Part shown: positions 52,493-59,262 of the stretch, piece after piece
How positions within the stretch are numbered: the stretch's first letter is position 1
How the letters are laid out: each line of letters begins with the position of its first letter
Source: an uncultured SAR86 cluster bacterium
Lineage (GTDB): Bacteria > Pseudomonadota > Gammaproteobacteria > Magnimaribacterales > Magnimaribacteraceae
DNA length: 64,000 nt
Direction of reading: 5' to 3'
Assembly: GCA_902542325.1 (NCBI GenBank)
Contig: CACBUE010000001.1
Location: forward strand, 186,001-250,000
Made by a program: the position numbers and the translations under genes
The notes under the pieces: generated by a model
The model's input: only the letters and a program-made list of their open reading frames with translations
What the model was told of the DNA's origin: nothing
Databases searched by the model: none

Positions 52493-53548
52493 TTATTTAA
52501 GACCAGAATTTATATCCTTTATTTTTTCTGAACCAGGACATAAATCATTAAGATCCATCTCATTTAAAGGCTTGTCTGAGACGTTTAGAATTTCTTTTAA
52601 ATCCTTAGCTTCTGGATCTGCATAAAGAAGACCTGTTAGAACCTTCCCATCTCTTTGAGATTCTTGAATATTTTGTATGGCCTTGATTTTATCTGCAGGA
52701 TCATAATTTTCGGAGATTTTTTCCAGAGAAAGTAACGAACCATCATGTAAAGGAACATCAACAGTTGATCCTTTTGGATAATCAGTAAGTATTTCCTTTC
52801 CAGAAGGTACAAAGTCTGGCCTAGACAGGGCGTCATTATGTTCTCGAATGTAGTCATAACTTTTAGTAGAGGTGTTGTGATTATTAAAGGTTACACAAGG
52901 AGAAATTATGTCTAAAAAAGAGAAACCTTTATGGGATAAGGCAGCTTTTAGCAAAGGAACTAATTGCTCTTTATCTCCAGAAAAGCTTCTTGCAACAAAA
53001 CTTGCACCTAATTGAATGGCCATGGAAGGTAAATCTATTGAAGGAAATAGATTATCATCGCCATATTTACTTTTCGATTCCAAGTCATTTGTAGCTGAAA
53101 ATTGACCTTTTGTAAGTCCATAAGTGCCATTATTTTCAACTATATATGTCATATTAAGCTGCCTTCTAGCACAGTGAATAAATTGACCAATACCTATTGA
53201 TGCGCTGTCTCCATCTCCAGAAATCCCCAAATATAATAGCTCATGATTCGCCATTGCAGCACCAGTAGCGATTGAAGGCATCCTTCCATGAACTGAGTTG
53301 AATCCATGAGATTGGTTCAAAAAGTAAGCGGGAGCTTTAGACGAACAACCTATTCCTGATAATTTTGCAACCTTGTAAGATTCTATACTGAGTTGAAAGC
53401 AAGCCTCAACTATTGCTGAGCTTATTGAGTCATGCCCACATCCTGCACAAAGGGTAGAGACAGCACCCTCATAATCTCTTCGTGTTAGTCCCAATTCATT
53501 TTTTTCAAGAAGTGGATGATGATTTTTTGGCTTTACTATATAAGTCAT
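52493..53548 (-). CDS. korB: 2-oxoacid:ferredoxin oxidoreductase, beta subunit
   Basis: Thiamine-diphosphate-binding subunit that decarboxylates a 2-oxoacid with CoA and ferredoxin. VSTLCAGCGHDSISSAIVEA near residue 33, GIGCSSKAPAYF near 65, HGRMPSIATGAAMANHEL, GDGDSASIGIGQFIHCARRQL near 112 and TYIVENNGTYGLTKGQFSAT near 134 are diagnostic of the Kor/Vor/Por beta family. It has 351 residues. It lies last in the three-gene operon. A 2-oxoglutarate substrate is the likeliest, but is not proven. Confidence 0.9.
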   Translation of the reverse strand: MTYIVKPKNHHPLLEKNELGLTRRDYEGAVSTLCAGCGHDSISSAIVEACFQLSIESYKVAKLSGIGCSSKAPAYFLNQSHGFNSVHGRMPSIATGAAMANHELLYLGISGDGDSASIGIGQFIHCARRQLNMTYIVENNGTYGLTKGQFSATNDLESKSKYGDDNLFPSIDLPSMAIQLGASFVARSFSGDKEQLVPLLKAALSHKGFSFLDIISPCVTFNNHNTSTKSYDYIREHNDALSRPDFVPSGKEILTDYPKGSTVDVPLHDGSLLSLEKISENYDPADKIKAIQNIQESQRDGKVLTGLLYADPEAKDLKEILNVSDKPLNEMDLNDLCPGSEKIKDINSGLK

Positions 53549-53557
53549 TTAATTTCC

Positions 53558-55375
53558 TTACGAGGCTACTAATGCCGGTTTACCGGATATGTGAGCATTT
53601 ATTTTATTTGTAATATGTTCAGCGGTTATAGGTTGACCATCAAAACAAAGAATAGATACAAGTTTGTCAGGAATTATCCCACCTTCAGCCATAATTAATG
53701 TTCTCATTTGACCATCTCTGTTTTGTTCAACTATAAAAAGCAGATCATGGTCTTCAATGAATTCCCAAACTTCAAGGTTAAATGGGAAGGCCCTAATTCT
53801 CATTGCATCAATATTTAAATTTTGTTCATCGAGAACATCAAGAGCCTCTTGCATAGAGCAATCTGTACTTCCAAAATAAATAATTCCCATCGAACTAGTA
53901 TTCTTTTCTTGATTAAATACTGGACTAGGCACTAAAGAAGAGGCTGTTTGAAATTTCTTTACAAGTCTTGTTAGCATTTCAGCATTTTTAACCCCATCTT
54001 CAGTATAACCGGCATATTCATCATGTGAGGTACCTCTTGTAAAATATGCCCCTTTTTCTGGATGTGTTCCAGGATATGTTCGATAAGGTATGCCATCTCC
54101 ATCAACGTCTAAATATCTTCCAAATTTCTCTATTCCATCTAAATCTTCTTTAGATAATACTTTCCCTCTATCATATTGATTATTATCGTCCCACTCGAAT
54201 TCTTTTGTAGACCAATCATTCATGCCTAGGTCTAAGTCCAGAAGCACAATAACAGGCGTCTGAAGTCGATCTGCTAGATCAAAAGCTTCCACGGCAAAAT
54301 CAAAACACTCCTTAGGATCTGATGGGATTAATAAAATATGTTTTGTATCTCCATGAGAAGCATATGCTGAACACAAGATATCCGACTGTTGCGTTCTGGT
54401 TGGCATACCTGTTGAGGGACCACCTCTTTGCACATTAAATAAAACAGTAGGAACTTCAGCAAAATAGGCTAATCCAATAAACTCGCTCATTAAGGAGACT
54501 CCTGGTCCACTAGTAGCAGTAAAAGCCCTCGCTCCGTTCCAGTTTGCTCCAATAGTCATACCCATGGCAGCTAATTCATCTTCAGCTTGAATAAATGCAA
54601 ATTTATTTTTTTCAGTGCCAATTTCGACCCTCATTTTTTCACTATATTTGCTGTAAGATTCTGCAAGAGATGTGGAAGGTGTAATAGGATACCAGGCACA
54701 AACAGTGGCGCCACCATATACACAACCCAAACCGGCAGCATCATTTCCACTAGTTAGGATTAATCCATCAGTTTTATTTGATTTGTTAACCTTGATATCA
54801 CAATAATCTTTGAAGTTTTCTTCTGCATAGTTATACCCAATGTTGAGAGCTTTTACATTAGGTTCGATGAGTTTTTCTTTACCTTTAAATTGTTCTTCTA
54901 TTAGTGAGATATATATATCTTTATCCATTTCAAGTATAGAAGCTAACAAGCCTACATACCCAAGATTTTTAAAGAGAAGTCTTTGCTTCGGATTGGTGAA
55001 TTCTTGGACGCATAATTTCGTGAGCGGAATTTCTAGGATATTTATATCTTCCCTGCCAAAATCTCTTTTCCAAGAAGAATCATAGATAAGGTAACCTCCC
55101 GCTTTAAGCTCTTCTACATCCTTTTGATAAGATTGAGGATTCATTGCAACAAATAAATCTATGCCTTCTCTTCTACCGAGGTATCCCTTTTCATTGACCC
55201 TTACCTCGAACCAAGTTGGCAAGCCTTGTATATTTGACGGAAAGATATTTTTTGGACTAACAGGTATTCCAGACCTAAAGACTCCTTTAGCAAACATTTG
55301 ATTTGCGCTTGCAGAGCCAGAGCCATTAACATTTGCAAATTTAATTACAAAGTCATTTACAGATTTTATCTTCAT
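53558..55375 (-). CDS. korA: 2-oxoacid:ferredoxin oxidoreductase, fused gamma-alpha subunit
   Basis: The N-terminal ~190 residues form the gamma domain (VKFANVNGSGSASANQMFAKG-like stretch and SRREGIDLFVAMNPQ), fused to the alpha domain (about 210-600) with SGNDAAGLGCVYGGATVCAWYPITPSTSLAES and ATSGPGVSLMSEFIGLA. The protein binds the oxoacid and CoA side of the reaction. ATG at 55375 is used: it overlaps the stop of the upstream gene as TAATG and starts at the conserved gamma domain. It precedes korB by nine bases. The fused architecture is that of the aerobic 2-oxoglutarate oxidoreductase type. Confidence 0.9.
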   Translation of the reverse strand: MKIKSVNDFVIKFANVNGSGSASANQMFAKGVFRSGIPVSPKNIFPSNIQGLPTWFEVRVNEKGYLGRREGIDLFVAMNPQSYQKDVEELKAGGYLIYDSSWKRDFGREDINILEIPLTKLCVQEFTNPKQRLLFKNLGYVGLLASILEMDKDIYISLIEEQFKGKEKLIEPNVKALNIGYNYAEENFKDYCDIKVNKSNKTDGLILTSGNDAAGLGCVYGGATVCAWYPITPSTSLAESYSKYSEKMRVEIGTEKNKFAFIQAEDELAAMGMTIGANWNGARAFTATSGPGVSLMSEFIGLAYFAEVPTVLFNVQRGGPSTGMPTRTQQSDILCSAYASHGDTKHILLIPSDPKECFDFAVEAFDLADRLQTPVIVLLDLDLGMNDWSTKEFEWDDNNQYDRGKVLSKEDLDGIEKFGRYLDVDGDGIPYRTYPGTHPEKGAYFTRGTSHDEYAGYTEDGVKNAEMLTRLVKKFQTASSLVPSPVFNQEKNTSSMGIIYFGSTDCSMQEALDVLDEQNLNIDAMRIRAFPFNLEVWEFIEDHDLLFIVEQNRDGQMRTLIMAEGGIIPDKLVSILCFDGQPITAEHITNKINAHISGKPALVAS

Positions 55376-57396
55376 TATGAATATGCCTTTGCTTCCTGAT
55401 AAAGGAAATTTTGCATGTCCCAAGCTCCTGTAGGACATCTCTCTGCACATAAACCACAATGCAGGCAGACATCTTCGTCTTTCACCATAACACGTGAAGT
55501 TTGCTCTAATTCCTCAGAAACCAAAATTTGCTGGTTTAAATTAATGGCAGGGATTCTTAGTTTATTTCTTAGATTTTCTTCAGAGTCATTGTGAACAAAA
55601 CTTATGCAGTCTGTAGGGCAAATATCTACACATGCATCACACTCAATACAAAGATCTTCTGAGAAGACAGTTTGAATATCACAGTTTAAGCAACGCTCCG
55701 CTTCCTCAAGAGCAGTGATTTCATCAAACCCCAACTCAACTTCCATCTTAAGATCTTTTAGAGCGTTTTTTTGGTCTGCATGAGGCACTAAAAACCTTTT
55801 AGCTTGCGAAATGTCATTATTGTAAGACCATTCGTGGACTCCCATTTTCTGACTTATAAGTGTAGTTGTTGGCTCTGGTCTATCGTATAGATCTGAACTT
55901 TTACAGAATTTATCGATTGAAATTGCCGCTTGATGACCATGCGCGGCTGCCCAAATTATATTTTCTGGCCCCCATGCGGCATCTCCACCAAAGAAAATCT
56001 TCTCATTTGATGACTGAAAAGTTACTTTATCGACTATTGGCATATCCCACTCACCAAATTCTATTCCAATATCTCTTTCAATCCACTCAAAAGCATTATC
56101 CTGTCCAATTGCAACTAATACATCATCACATTCAATAATAATCGGATCATCACCTGTAGGAACAAGACTTCTTTTGCCCTCTTCATCAAATACAGCTTCT
56201 ACTTTTTCAAATTCCATTCCAACTAGCTTGTCGTCTTTGATTAAGAAGCGTTTGGGTACGTGATTATCTAGGATAGGAATTCCTTCACCGAGAGCATCCT
56301 CTATCTCCCATTCTGAAGCTTTCATTTGGTCGAAAGGACTTCTAACTGCAACCTTCACTTCTTCAGCGCCAAGTCTTATAGCCGTTCTACAACAATCCAT
56401 TGCTGTATTTCCACCGCCCAATACTATTACTTTTTTTCCTACTGATTTCGTATGTTCAAAGGCTATGCTTGTAAGCCAATCTATCCCTATGTGTATATTT
56501 TTATCAGCAGCTTCTCTACCTTCGATATTTATATCTCTACCTTTAGGTGCTCCTGTTCCCACGAAGACTGCATCAAAATCTTTCTCTAAAAATTCTTTCA
56601 TACTCTTTATTTCTGAATTAAATACAGTTTTGATGCCCAAGTTCAAGACTTGATCAACTTCCTCATTTAGAACCTCCTCCGGAAGTCTAAAAGAGGGTAT
56701 ATTCGTTCTCATGAGACCTCCAGCTTGTGGATCTCTTTCGAAGAGAGTGCATTGATAACCCATCATTACTAAATCTCTTGCAACTGTTAATGAAGCGGGA
56801 CCACCTCCTATGAGACCAACTTTCTTTCCATTGCCAATTTCGGGGGTAGGTATTAGATTCGCAATATCATCTTTATAATCATAGGTAACTCTCTTAAGCC
56901 TACAAATTGCTACTGCTTTTTCATGAGTTCTAGTTCTCCGACAGGCAGGTTCACAGGGTCTGTCACAGGTTCTTCCGAGTATTCCAGGAAATACATTAGA
57001 CTCCCAATTTAGCATGTATGCTTCATTATAGTTGCCTTGAGAAATTTGTCTTATGTACTCAGGTACAGGTGTATGAGCAGGGCAGGCGTGCTGGCATTCT
57101 ACAACTTTATGATAGTACTGAGGATTTGCAGTATCTGTAGGAGGTACATATTGGGTAACGGTTTGCTCAGGTACAGAGAAAAGGTCGAGACTCTCTTGGC
57201 TTTTCGCTTGATCTATTTTAGCCTTTAGTTGTTCAACTACTTGCCATCTTAATTCTTGAGCTTTATCTAAATCGTGAGTCTGAAGTGACCTTCTCAAATC
57301 ATACCCTAATTCCTCTCTTAGAGTTTTAGGTACAGCTACTTTAACCCACCAAGTATTGTACCTTTTAAACAAGTACCTTGTGTCTGCGTTACTCAT
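55375..57396 (-). CDS. GltD-like FAD/NAD(P)H oxidoreductase with 4Fe-4S domains and an integrase-like N-terminal domain
   Basis: Residues ~1-65 (RYLFKRYNTWWVKVAVPKTL, then DLRRSLQTHDLDKAQELRW) resemble the arm-type DNA-binding N-terminal domain found on tyrosine recombinases (DUF6538-like). From about 95 the protein is GltD-like: Cys101, Cys105, Cys144, Cys148 and Cys152 can hold Fe-S clusters, VGLIGGGPASLTVA near 183 binds FAD, and VIVLGGGNTAMDCC near 315 binds NAD(P)H. The C-terminus has CIECDACVDICPTDC and CLHCGLCAERCPTGA, two 4Fe-4S motifs. It probably passes electrons between NAD(P)H and the KorAB ferredoxin site. No methionine codon separates the first domain from the rest. Confidence 0.85.
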   Translation of the reverse strand: MSNADTRYLFKRYNTWWVKVAVPKTLREELGYDLRRSLQTHDLDKAQELRWQVVEQLKAKIDQAKSQESLDLFSVPEQTVTQYVPPTDTANPQYYHKVVECQHACPAHTPVPEYIRQISQGNYNEAYMLNWESNVFPGILGRTCDRPCEPACRRTRTHEKAVAICRLKRVTYDYKDDIANLIPTPEIGNGKKVGLIGGGPASLTVARDLVMMGYQCTLFERDPQAGGLMRTNIPSFRLPEEVLNEEVDQVLNLGIKTVFNSEIKSMKEFLEKDFDAVFVGTGAPKGRDINIEGREAADKNIHIGIDWLTSIAFEHTKSVGKKVIVLGGGNTAMDCCRTAIRLGAEEVKVAVRSPFDQMKASEWEIEDALGEGIPILDNHVPKRFLIKDDKLVGMEFEKVEAVFDEEGKRSLVPTGDDPIIIECDDVLVAIGQDNAFEWIERDIGIEFGEWDMPIVDKVTFQSSNEKIFFGGDAAWGPENIIWAAAHGHQAAISIDKFCKSSDLYDRPEPTTTLISQKMGVHEWSYNNDISQAKRFLVPHADQKNALKDLKMEVELGFDEITALEEAERCLNCDIQTVFSEDLCIECDACVDICPTDCISFVHNDSEENLRNKLRIPAINLNQQILVSEELEQTSRVMVKDEDVCLHCGLCAERCPTGAWDMQNFLYQEAKAYS

Positions 57397-57437
57397 ATTC
57401 TGATATTAAATTCATTCCAATTAAATTAGGAATATAT

Positions 57438-57447
57438 GGTACATGTA
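57438..57447. promoter_or_regulatory. First copy of a GGTACATGTA repeat
   Basis: GGTACATGTA within ATGGTACATGTA, 41 bases before the flavoprotein start on the minus strand and near its probable promoter. It matches the fuller palindrome GGTACATGTACC at 57515-57526, 77 bases away. An unknown regulator could bind both. Confidence 0.45.
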
Positions 57448-57490
57448 TTAGGTTTATATACCAATACTTTTTATGAAAATTGTCTATATG

Positions 57491-57513
57491 TTAATGATAA
57501 TCATTATCATTAA
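57491..57513. promoter_or_regulatory. Fur box
   Basis: A perfect 11-1-11 palindrome, TTAATGATAAT-C-ATTATCATTAA. Its core contains two overlapping GATAATGAT-type hexamer arrays as in the Fur consensus GATAATGATAATCATTATC. It sits in the divergent spacer, about 80 bases before iscR and 95 bases before the flavoprotein start, so it can control either side. Confidence 0.85.
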
Positions 57514-57514
57514 T

Positions 57515-57526
57515 GGTACATGTACC
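57515..57526. promoter_or_regulatory. Palindrome GGTACATGTACC
   Basis: A perfect 12-base palindrome immediately after the Fur-like box. A 12-base copy of its left part (ATGGTACATGTA) recurs at 57436-57447. It is a candidate operator for an unidentified dimeric regulator. Confidence 0.5.
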
Positions 57527-57552: not shown

Positions 57553-57584
57553 ATTGTTGACTAATTTACTCGGGAACATATAAT
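57553..57584 (+). promoter_or_regulatory. iscR promoter overlapping a type 1 IscR site
   Basis: Bases 57553-57577 match 21 of 25 positions of the E. coli type 1 IscR consensus (key pieces TTGACT near 57557 and the later CTCGGG). TTGACT at 57557-57562 is the -35 and TATAAT at 57579-57584 the -10, 16 bases apart. The predicted transcript start is at or next to the ATG (57592), so the mRNA may be leaderless. IscR autorepression through its Fe-S form is expected. Confidence 0.8.
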
Positions 57585-57591
57585 TCCGCCC

Positions 57592-58044
57592 ATGAACTTG
57601 ACTACCAAAGGCAAATACGCTGTCACAGCAGCACTTGATTTAGCGATGCAACAAACAATTGCAGATGGCTTTACAAAGATTTCTGATGTTGCAAAACGAC
57701 AAGATATACCTGCTGCTTACTTAGAACAAATATTTAGCCGTTTGAGAAAGGCTGGTATTTTACATGCAGCAAGAGGGCCTAATGGTGGATTTAAGCTTTC
57801 TAAGCAAAGAGATGAAGTGATGATCGGTGAGATCATAAGTGCAGTTGAAAGAAATATGGATGCTACCCAATGTTCTGGTGAGGGTATTTGCAACAGCGGT
57901 ACTAAGTGTATCGCACATAATTTTTGGATAGATTTTAATGACAATGTTAATGAATTTTTAATGAATAGATCTCTGGATGATGTCATTACAAACAGGAGAG
58001 GTAGTGTTGAACAAATGGGCCAAGCCCTTATAGCTACAGGATAA
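57592..58044 (+). CDS. iscR: Fe-S cluster-responsive regulator IscR
   Basis: Rrf2-family repressor that senses Fe-S status and controls its own isc operon. The N-terminal winged helix (MNLTTKGKYAVTAALDLA, QDIPAAYLEQIFSRLRKAGIL, RGPNGGFKLS) is followed by the cluster ligands Cys94, Cys100, Cys106 and His109 in CSGEGICNSGTKCIAH. The 150 residues are typical. No ribosome-binding site is visible before the ATG. It is divergent from the oxidoreductase operon. Confidence 0.97.
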   Translation: MNLTTKGKYAVTAALDLAMQQTIADGFTKISDVAKRQDIPAAYLEQIFSRLRKAGILHAARGPNGGFKLSKQRDEVMIGEIISAVERNMDATQCSGEGICNSGTKCIAHNFWIDFNDNVNEFLMNRSLDDVITNRRGSVEQMGQALIATG

Positions 58045-58047
58045 AAC

Positions 58048-59262
58048 ATGCAATTACCTATTTACCTAGATTATGCCTCTACCACACCGGCAGACCCTCG
58101 AGTGGTCAAGAAGATGCAAGAATGTTTATCGCTTGATGGAAATTTTGGAAATCCAGCTTCAAGATCGCATGCTTTTGGATGGAAGGCTGAAGAGGCAACT
58201 GAAGAGGCCCGACAGCACGTTGCAGATTTGGTTAATTGTGATCCTAGAGAAATTGTTTGGACCTCCGGTGCTACAGAATCTGACAATCTAGCGATTAAAG
58301 GAGCAGCTAGATTTTACAAGACTAAAGGAAATCACATCGTAACCTCAAAAATAGAACATAAAGCTGTCCTAGATAGTTGCAGGCAATTGGAAAGAGAAGG
58401 CTTTGACGTCACCTACCTCGATCCAGACAGCAATGGAATAATATCTCCAGATCTAGTTAAAGAATCACTAACAGACAAAACAATTTTAGTTAGCTTAATG
58501 CACATAAATAATGAAATTGGAGTCGTTAATGACATCAAGGCTATAGGAGAAATAACTAGGGAAGCCGGTATAATATTTCATGTTGATGCTGCACAAAGCA
58601 CAGGTAAGCTTCCAATTGACCTTTCGGAACTTCAGGTAGATCTTATGTCCTTTTCAGCACATAAAACTTACGGACCTAAAGGAATAGGTGCTATGTACGC
58701 GAGCAGAAAACCTAGGGTTAGATTAGAAGCTCAAATTCATGGTGGGGGACATGAAAGAGGCATGAGATCTGGTACTTTAGCCACCCATCAAATCGTTGGC
58801 ATGGGTGAGGCCTTTAGAATAGCAAAGGTAGACATGGATGAGGATAATAAGAGAATAGAAAACCTTAGAAATAAGTTCTGGGATGCTATTAAAGATATGG
58901 AAGAAGTGTATTTAAACGGTGATGAGATATCCAGAGCACCTGGATTCTTAAATGTAAGCTTCAATTATGTAGAGGGTGAATCATTAATAATGGCCCTTAA
59001 AGATATAGCAGTATCTTCCGGTTCAGCTTGTACTTCAGCTAGCTTAGAGCCCTCTTATGTTCTAAGAGCTTTAGGGCTAAAAGACGAACTAGCACATAGT
59101 TCTATTAGATTTGCTATAGGAAGATTCACTACTGAAGAAGAAGTAGAATATACAATTGACTTGGTTAGAGACTCGGTGGAAAAATTAAGGACTCTTTCTC
59201 CTTTATGGGACATGTATAAAGACGGTGTCGATTTGGACACAATTGAATGGGCGGAAGGCTAA
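58048..59262 (+). CDS. iscS: Cysteine desulfurase IscS
   Basis: PLP enzyme that takes sulfur from cysteine for Fe-S clusters and thio-modified tRNA. Lys206 in [12 protein letters not shown] binds [14 protein letters not shown] near 178-188 is conserved, and the active-site Cys328 lies in [14 protein letters not shown] on the mobile loop. The 404 residues equal E. coli IscS. It begins three bases after the iscR stop and is followed by iscU. Confidence 0.98.

Follow-up and report, generated by a model that had tools for sequence, protein, structure and literature searches.

An integrase-type N-terminal domain on a SAR86 flavoprotein and other redox enzymes, its paired gene-start repeats and a probable role in autogenous control

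Enzymes that control their own synthesis through an attached DNA-binding domain are a known kind, represented by PutA, BirA and NadR. In these proteins an active enzyme carries a domain through which its own gene or pathway is regulated. A comparable layout is proposed for a flavoprotein encoded in a 64,000-nucleotide stretch of DNA from an uncultured SAR86 cluster bacterium (the window; contig CACBUE010000001.1, positions 186,001 to 250,000), which begins with an integrase-type domain, here called the head, that would likewise bind DNA. It differs from PutA, BirA and NadR in that the head is of the integrase type instead of a ribbon-helix-helix or helix-turn-helix domain, and in that it has been captured repeatedly, apparently together with its operator. 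A homologous head is found in tyrosine integrases with a DUF6538 N-terminal domain, some of which are preceded by similar repeats, but here the core-binding and catalytic recombinase domains are missing and the head is attached to redox enzymes. The rest of the protein is homologous to the PRK12771-type NAD(P)-binding flavoproteins (GltD/NfnB-like), from which it differs by the extra head and by a score below the model cut-off. According to PMC3602430, BzdR joins a DNA-binding domain to a shikimate kinase fold, the loss of enzyme activity was essential for BzdR, and the protein is a regulator with an effector-binding domain. The likeness thus lies in a DNA-binding domain on an enzyme fold, whereas the iron-sulfur (Fe-S) cysteines of the SAR86 flavoprotein are invariant across 17 sequences. 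In the open-licence literature no description was found of integrase-type heads on redox enzymes, nor of DUF6538; within the literature covered, the integrase source of the head, its pairing with private repeats and the recurrence of such fusions appear to be new.

The flavoprotein gene (55375..57396, minus strand) belongs to a 2-oxoacid:acceptor oxidoreductase operon, starts with ATG and encodes 673 amino acids (aa) with the GltD/NfnB-like (PRK12771) content of Fer4_20, Pyr_redox_2 and Fer4, including two 4Fe-4S motifs. In Pfam the best stretch of Fer4_20 covers residues 99-175, followed by Pyr_redox_2 (192-487) and Fer4_7 (583-658); the PRK12771 model matches residues 77-662 with 409.2 bits, under the NCBIfam curated cut-off of 516. 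An initial annotation had proposed an N-terminal integrase-type domain, and this is borne out by a match of DUF6538 (PF20172) above threshold to residues 8-65 (57202..57375, minus strand; E value 1.4e-9, 37.9 bits versus a gathering score of 27). AlphaFold2 predicts a beta-beta-alpha-beta-alpha fold for residues 1-70 (predicted local distance difference test score, pLDDT, 92.8); the full-length model is poor (mean pLDDT 53), and a search of solved-structure sequences with the head returned a single match, at E 1.7. Judged by its domain content, the flavoprotein is not a tyrosine recombinase: neither Phage_integrase nor a core-binding domain is among the 25 families listed of its 31 Pfam families, and the remaining chain is that of a flavoprotein. 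The earlier remark that no internal start could free the enzyme also holds, since the first internal methionine, residue 128, lies past the first Fe-S cysteines; by eye, residues 66-100 contain no in-frame ATG, GTG or TTG.

Orthologues share the same fusion, so that both checks which the initial annotation had set against itself came out in its favour. In a survey of 203 genomes of the order, many of which are incomplete, with the window assigned to the SAR86 cluster by named relatives, the flavoprotein is found at E <= 1e-60 in 65 genomes, four of which (G003, G011, G034 and G101) have only a part away from the N-terminus. The head is matched in 60 of the 61 flavoproteins with a visible N-terminus, and the fusion is therefore not an assembly artefact. 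The single exception, in G201, starts just past the head region, which indicates that a headless form exists. Ratios of non-synonymous to synonymous substitution rates (dN/dS) for the head are 0.03-0.10 in four pairwise comparisons, and are rough because dS exceeds 1 (saturated) in three of the four. The head fusion is genuine and ancient, and purifying selection maintains it; conservation together with dN/dS rules out a functionless domain or a mis-annotated start. Five genomes of family f1 that lack the flavoprotein (G005, G006, G012, G013 and G021) also show no match to IscS (E <= 1e-80) or IscR, and look as if the whole segment had been lost.

Repeats are concentrated around the start of this gene. 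Eight of the 22 GGTACA/TGTACC sites of the window start within 57062-57526 (465 bp; Poisson P 2.8e-13). Putative operator 1 (57515..57526) is a perfect palindrome, GGTACATGTACC, made of two overlapping GGTACAT half sites; putative operator 2, TATGGTACAT (57435..57444), also lies upstream of the start codon, and five more sites (57062..57362, with starts at 57062, 57143, 57170, 57329 and 57357) lie in the first 340 coding bases. Between the two putative operators there is a second perfect palindrome, AATGATAATCATTATCATT (57493..57511, 0 mismatches), which we take to be Fur-box-like; it is kept in several g1 relatives (L087-L092) and was not seen in the other flavoprotein upstream regions compared.

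The head is not confined to the flavoprotein. Its profile matches 122 of the 203 genomes, once per genome: 60 flavoproteins, 12 IscS fusions, nine Rieske fusions, 40 short tail-anchored proteins and one integrase, with classes assigned by open-frame length and, in the loci read, by sequence. A C-terminal membrane-like segment is present in all 21 tail-anchored carriers examined. The heads of flavoprotein, IscS, KorA and NfnA-like genes are referred to as type A, and those of the nine Rieske and the tail-anchored genes as type B. Outside the order, where 80 relatives were retained from 107 found, a type-A head occurs on KorA or on an NfnA/PyrK-like reductase (Woeseiaceae, Chromatiales and other named genomes); some of the named metagenome-assembled genomes (Ilumatobacter, Cytophagales and Deltaproteobacteria labels) may be mis-binned. 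The KorA head matched 331 proteins in a protein collection, with PF20172 in all 120 matches listed.

A second, different integrase-type head marks the C classes, namely the f4 Rieske gene, the f2 GltD gene and a large 2-oxoacid oxidoreductase. Among the seven f4 Rieske loci first read, four carry this head and three are headless. A search with it gave matches in 108 of the 203 genomes, comprising 93 in f2, 14 in f4, three of them in frames too short to judge, and one integrase-like protein (L259, 382 aa, integrase SAM-like domains, one above cut-off). Thirteen GltD-type loci were retrieved from f2, and 12 of them yield distinct GltD genes (glutamate synthase small subunit). In G148 and G149 the second head is also found on a protein of about 1240 aa, which has POR, TPP and DUF6537 domains in the G149 copy; this large oxidoreductase shows a ferredoxin-like cysteine pattern. 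Comparison of the type A and type C profiles gives weak similarity (probability 21%, 16 columns), and the two are therefore treated as separate captures. The initial annotation had viewed the flavoprotein as a single odd fusion; the fusion stands, its singularity does not, as other carriers, an operator cluster and a second head type exist too. One and the same gene, the Rieske gene ahead of cytochrome b, has acquired either of two different integrase-type heads (loci L069, L127, L230 and L232), each time behind a ribosomal-protein gene (rpsI, judged from its sequence). The headless Rieske genes of genus g10 (L223, L231 and L242) begin directly behind a ribosomal-protein gene, without repeats.

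When upstream regions are placed side by side, a GTAC-core repeat precedes the type-A and type-B genes compared. Motifs first noticed in these data were then counted in the same data, within 250 bp at the gene start, anchored at the head, for 161 head genes (plus one integrase); the genomes are related, so that the counts represent about nine gene contexts and not independent events. GGTACA is present in 106/106 type-A genes (59/59 flavoprotein, 12/12 IscS, 26/26 KorA and 9/9 NfnA-like), with at least two copies in 52, 12, 13 and 9 of them, respectively. TG[ACG]GTACA occurs in 30/30 type-B genes (9/9 Rieske, 21/21 tail-anchored) and in 0/106 type-A genes; GGTACA is also found in 26 of the 30 type-B genes because the B motif with G includes it. 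At least two copies of TTGAACA are found in 11/11 f4 Rieske genes, of GTCATAC in 12/12 GltD genes and of TATACACA in 2/2 large oxidoreductase genes, and the C-class genes have none of the other four motifs. Among 39 headless genes of the same enzymes, GGTACA is found once (GltD 0/8, IscS 0/7, Rieske 1/24), and one GltD gene has a single TTGAACA. In 251 other genes GGTACA occurs in 14 (one with at least two copies), TG[ACG]GTACA in three, TTGAACA in 27 (never twice), GTCATAC in three and TATACACA in two.

Relative to the rest of the same loci, the motifs are enriched 32-35-fold at IscS and flavoprotein genes and 45-74-fold at type-B genes, and GGTACA 17-25-fold at KorA and NfnA-like genes; KorA gives 25/26 in this count, owing to a start assigned too far upstream for L298, and 26/26 when anchored at the head. 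Mapped over four SAR86 classes, the sites reach their highest density between -200 and +100 and are absent from -400 to -300; flavoprotein and tail-anchored genes have a further, sparser group between +200 and +450, which includes reverse B sites in the tail-anchored genes. The linkers of tail-anchored proteins (L068, L072, L075 and L079) contain recurring VPI/VPM peptides that reverse B-motif copies can encode. Within a single genus the motif tracks the head type: in g18, 11/11 type-A flavoprotein genes carry the A motif and lack the B motif, 4/4 type-B tail-anchored genes have the B motif, and eight GltD and two large oxidoreductase genes have neither. GGTACA is also retained in high-GC Woeseiaceae-type genomes. 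A wider regulon is not apparent: GGTACATGTACC with at most one mismatch occurs at just one other place of the genome (L183), inside a coding region, and of 42 TATGRGTACAWW sites in ten f2 genomes, 28 lie at the head gene, the other 14 being fewer than the 27 of a reversed-pattern control.

The integrases themselves give a mixed picture of where the repeats come from. A SAR86 integrase (L116), with Phage_integrase and DUF6538 both above cut-off, has two GGTACATT sites directly ahead of its start, GTAGGTACATT and GTGGGTACATT. For L259, a stretch of 200 bp contains five TAACACA/TGTGTTA copies, and the rest of the locus contains none. An even sample of 369 genomes across the class held 20 non-carrier DUF6538 genes, eight of which have GGTACA within 120 bp upstream (background 0.045 per gene, P 1.3e-6); four of these eight are frames of 75-85 aa. 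By eye, other integrases of the class show different tandem repeats, such as three GGGCACA-like copies before L404. Of three plasmid matches to the head, two are annotated tyrosine-type recombinase/integrases (38% and 35% identity) without GGTACA upstream, and the third (48%), in an unannotated record, has two TGTACC sites. Viral contigs searched gave no confirmed relative of the head, and phages searched gave no match. With integrase-side repeats so mixed, an ancestral operator common to integrases and head carriers is plausible from these sequences, not established.

Taken as a whole, the data make it likely that the enzyme regulates its own operon autogenously, by means of an integrase-derived DNA-binding head that was acquired along with its operator. 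The head would have its origin in a tyrosine integrase and would probably have brought along repeats from that integrase's own promoter. It would bind the GGTACA sites around and across the flavoprotein gene start, in the region common to this gene and a divergent iscR-like gene (Rrf2, 110 bits; 57592..58044, plus strand). With enough free enzyme, the operon would be repressed through feedback by the product of its first gene. Several operons, most of them for Fe-S electron-transfer systems, would have received this module of operators and head by fusion to their first gene. We infer binding of the head to the repeats and a joint move of operator and head; as to the sign of control, repression agrees better than activation with sites placed so close to the promoter and start codon. 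Of partner binding, DNA binding and redox sensing, the three functions offered initially for the head, DNA binding is the one favoured, given the repeats around the gene start. The Fur-like palindrome and a nearby promoter-like site before iscR (TTGACT-16-TATAAT, 57557..57584, plus strand, in a region where the count of such sites is not above shuffles) suggest that iscR may be co-regulated. Two results weigh against autogenous control by a captured head and operator. A recombinase domain above cut-off is found by Pfam in nine of the 15 non-carriers scanned, and just three of these nine have GGTACA, which makes the integrase precedent thinner; moreover, a blind per-gene repeat test is significant in only part of the genes, against two passes among the 251 control genes.

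The signal that releases repression may be the level of free enzyme, the state of a cluster or placement at the membrane. The prevalence of carriers in Fe-S systems points to cluster state, and the tail-anchored form argues against its generality. Sensing might even be the main point, with cluster loss, oxidation or enzyme assembly switching operator binding, so that the enzyme would act as a sensor of redox or Fe-S status, possibly by activation; this account, which overlaps with autogenous control, is held tentatively. Most carriers belong to Fe-S systems: the Fer4 flavoprotein, IscS, Rieske proteins with two different heads, GltD with Fer4_20, a DHODB-type Fe-S reductase, KorA and the POR/TPP oxidoreductase. 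On the other hand, the tail-anchored carrier shows no cluster motif, and KorA and IscS are not known to have a stable cluster themselves. An extension, which we regard as doubtful, is that a portable module of integrase promoter, arm-type repeats and head has been repeatedly captured in frame by Fe-S electron-transfer enzymes, each of which would have become a self-contained sensor-regulator that binds DNA according to the state of its cluster or of its assembly.

A different explanation is that the repeats are operators of another regulator and the head is a passenger domain for protein-protein contacts or scaffolding. Other regulators may act in this region, as the Fur-like palindrome and the neighbouring iscR indicate, and binding of the repeats by the head is itself deduced. 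Such a regulator is nevertheless unlikely, given that the motif changes with the head type even within genus g18, persists at unrelated loci and at differing GC contents, is missing from 38 of the 39 headless genes of the same enzymes, and shares its core with sites before some true integrases. IscR was rejected as the owner of the motif: none of the 110 IscR-matching genomes (of 203) belongs to family f3, yet f3 keeps the motif. That the head is a neutral relic, left when a degenerate integrase gene happened to fuse with the one that follows it, is very improbable: integrases with such heads do persist in the order (L116, L259), but the dN/dS values, the near-universal head on visible flavoproteins, the heads on several other genes and the retained repeats contradict it.

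Autogenous control would here extend over the genes downstream of the flavoprotein, as identified by open reading frames (ORFs) and domain scans. The KorA-like alpha subunit (POR, POR_N; 53561..55375, minus strand) has its own ATG, which overlaps the flavoprotein stop, and is followed by the KorB-like beta subunit (52493..53548, minus strand). PMC11582366 notes 2-oxoglutarate ferredoxin oxidoreductases in two families of SAR86 and assigns them to an alternative tricarboxylic acid cycle, which is probably the metabolic setting of the flavoprotein-KorAB operon; the words integrase, iron-sulfur, transcription and Rieske do not occur in its main text.

On the other side of the shared region, iscR is followed by an iscS-like cysteine desulfurase gene (58048..59262, plus strand), headless in the window genome and head-bearing in 12 genomes, all of family f3 and none with a flavoprotein match. 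In the ten f3 loci with ORFs listed, the isc operon contains the IscS fusion instead of the arrangement with the flavoprotein. The IscS tree requires three changes and the flank tree five (both quick trees, six flank rows filling half the columns), which disfavours many independent IscS fusions and makes few fusion events with whole-allele exchange of the locus between genera likelier. Alternative gene sets occupy one locus between and within genera (L031-L035, L117 and L120 versus L083, L084 and L118): a thiamine pyrophosphate (TPP) enzyme and mostly an aldehyde dehydrogenase with head-IscS, or KorB-KorA-flavoprotein beside a plain IscS. Some f3 loci encode a ferredoxin and an IscA-like protein (names by sequence) in a single ORF of 242-244 aa (L032 5792-6526, L033 5789-6517, L083 2776-3504); in L121 and L122 they are separate ORFs. 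Genus g8 (L068, L073, L076-L079 and L125) has an NAD-formate dehydrogenase-like gene (name by sequence) that runs divergently from the tail-anchored head gene, and the repeats of the head gene could control this neighbour as well.

The natural pairs of head and repeat form a matched set, and a domain of 70 residues with a short piece of DNA allows a direct and cheap test; the uncharacterised DUF6538 thereby gains a testable DNA target. If autogenous control by the head is correct, it reveals one route by which autogenous enzyme-regulators originate, in which the catalytic half of a recombinase is lost while the head, and perhaps the operator, stays behind on a metabolic operon. If the more doubtful portable module is also real, captures in small genomes would replace separate transcription factors enzyme by enzyme, and within one cell each kind of head would direct the enzyme that bears it to an operator of its own. 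Autogenous control by such heads may explain how redox metabolism is controlled in these abundant, gene-poor ocean bacteria.

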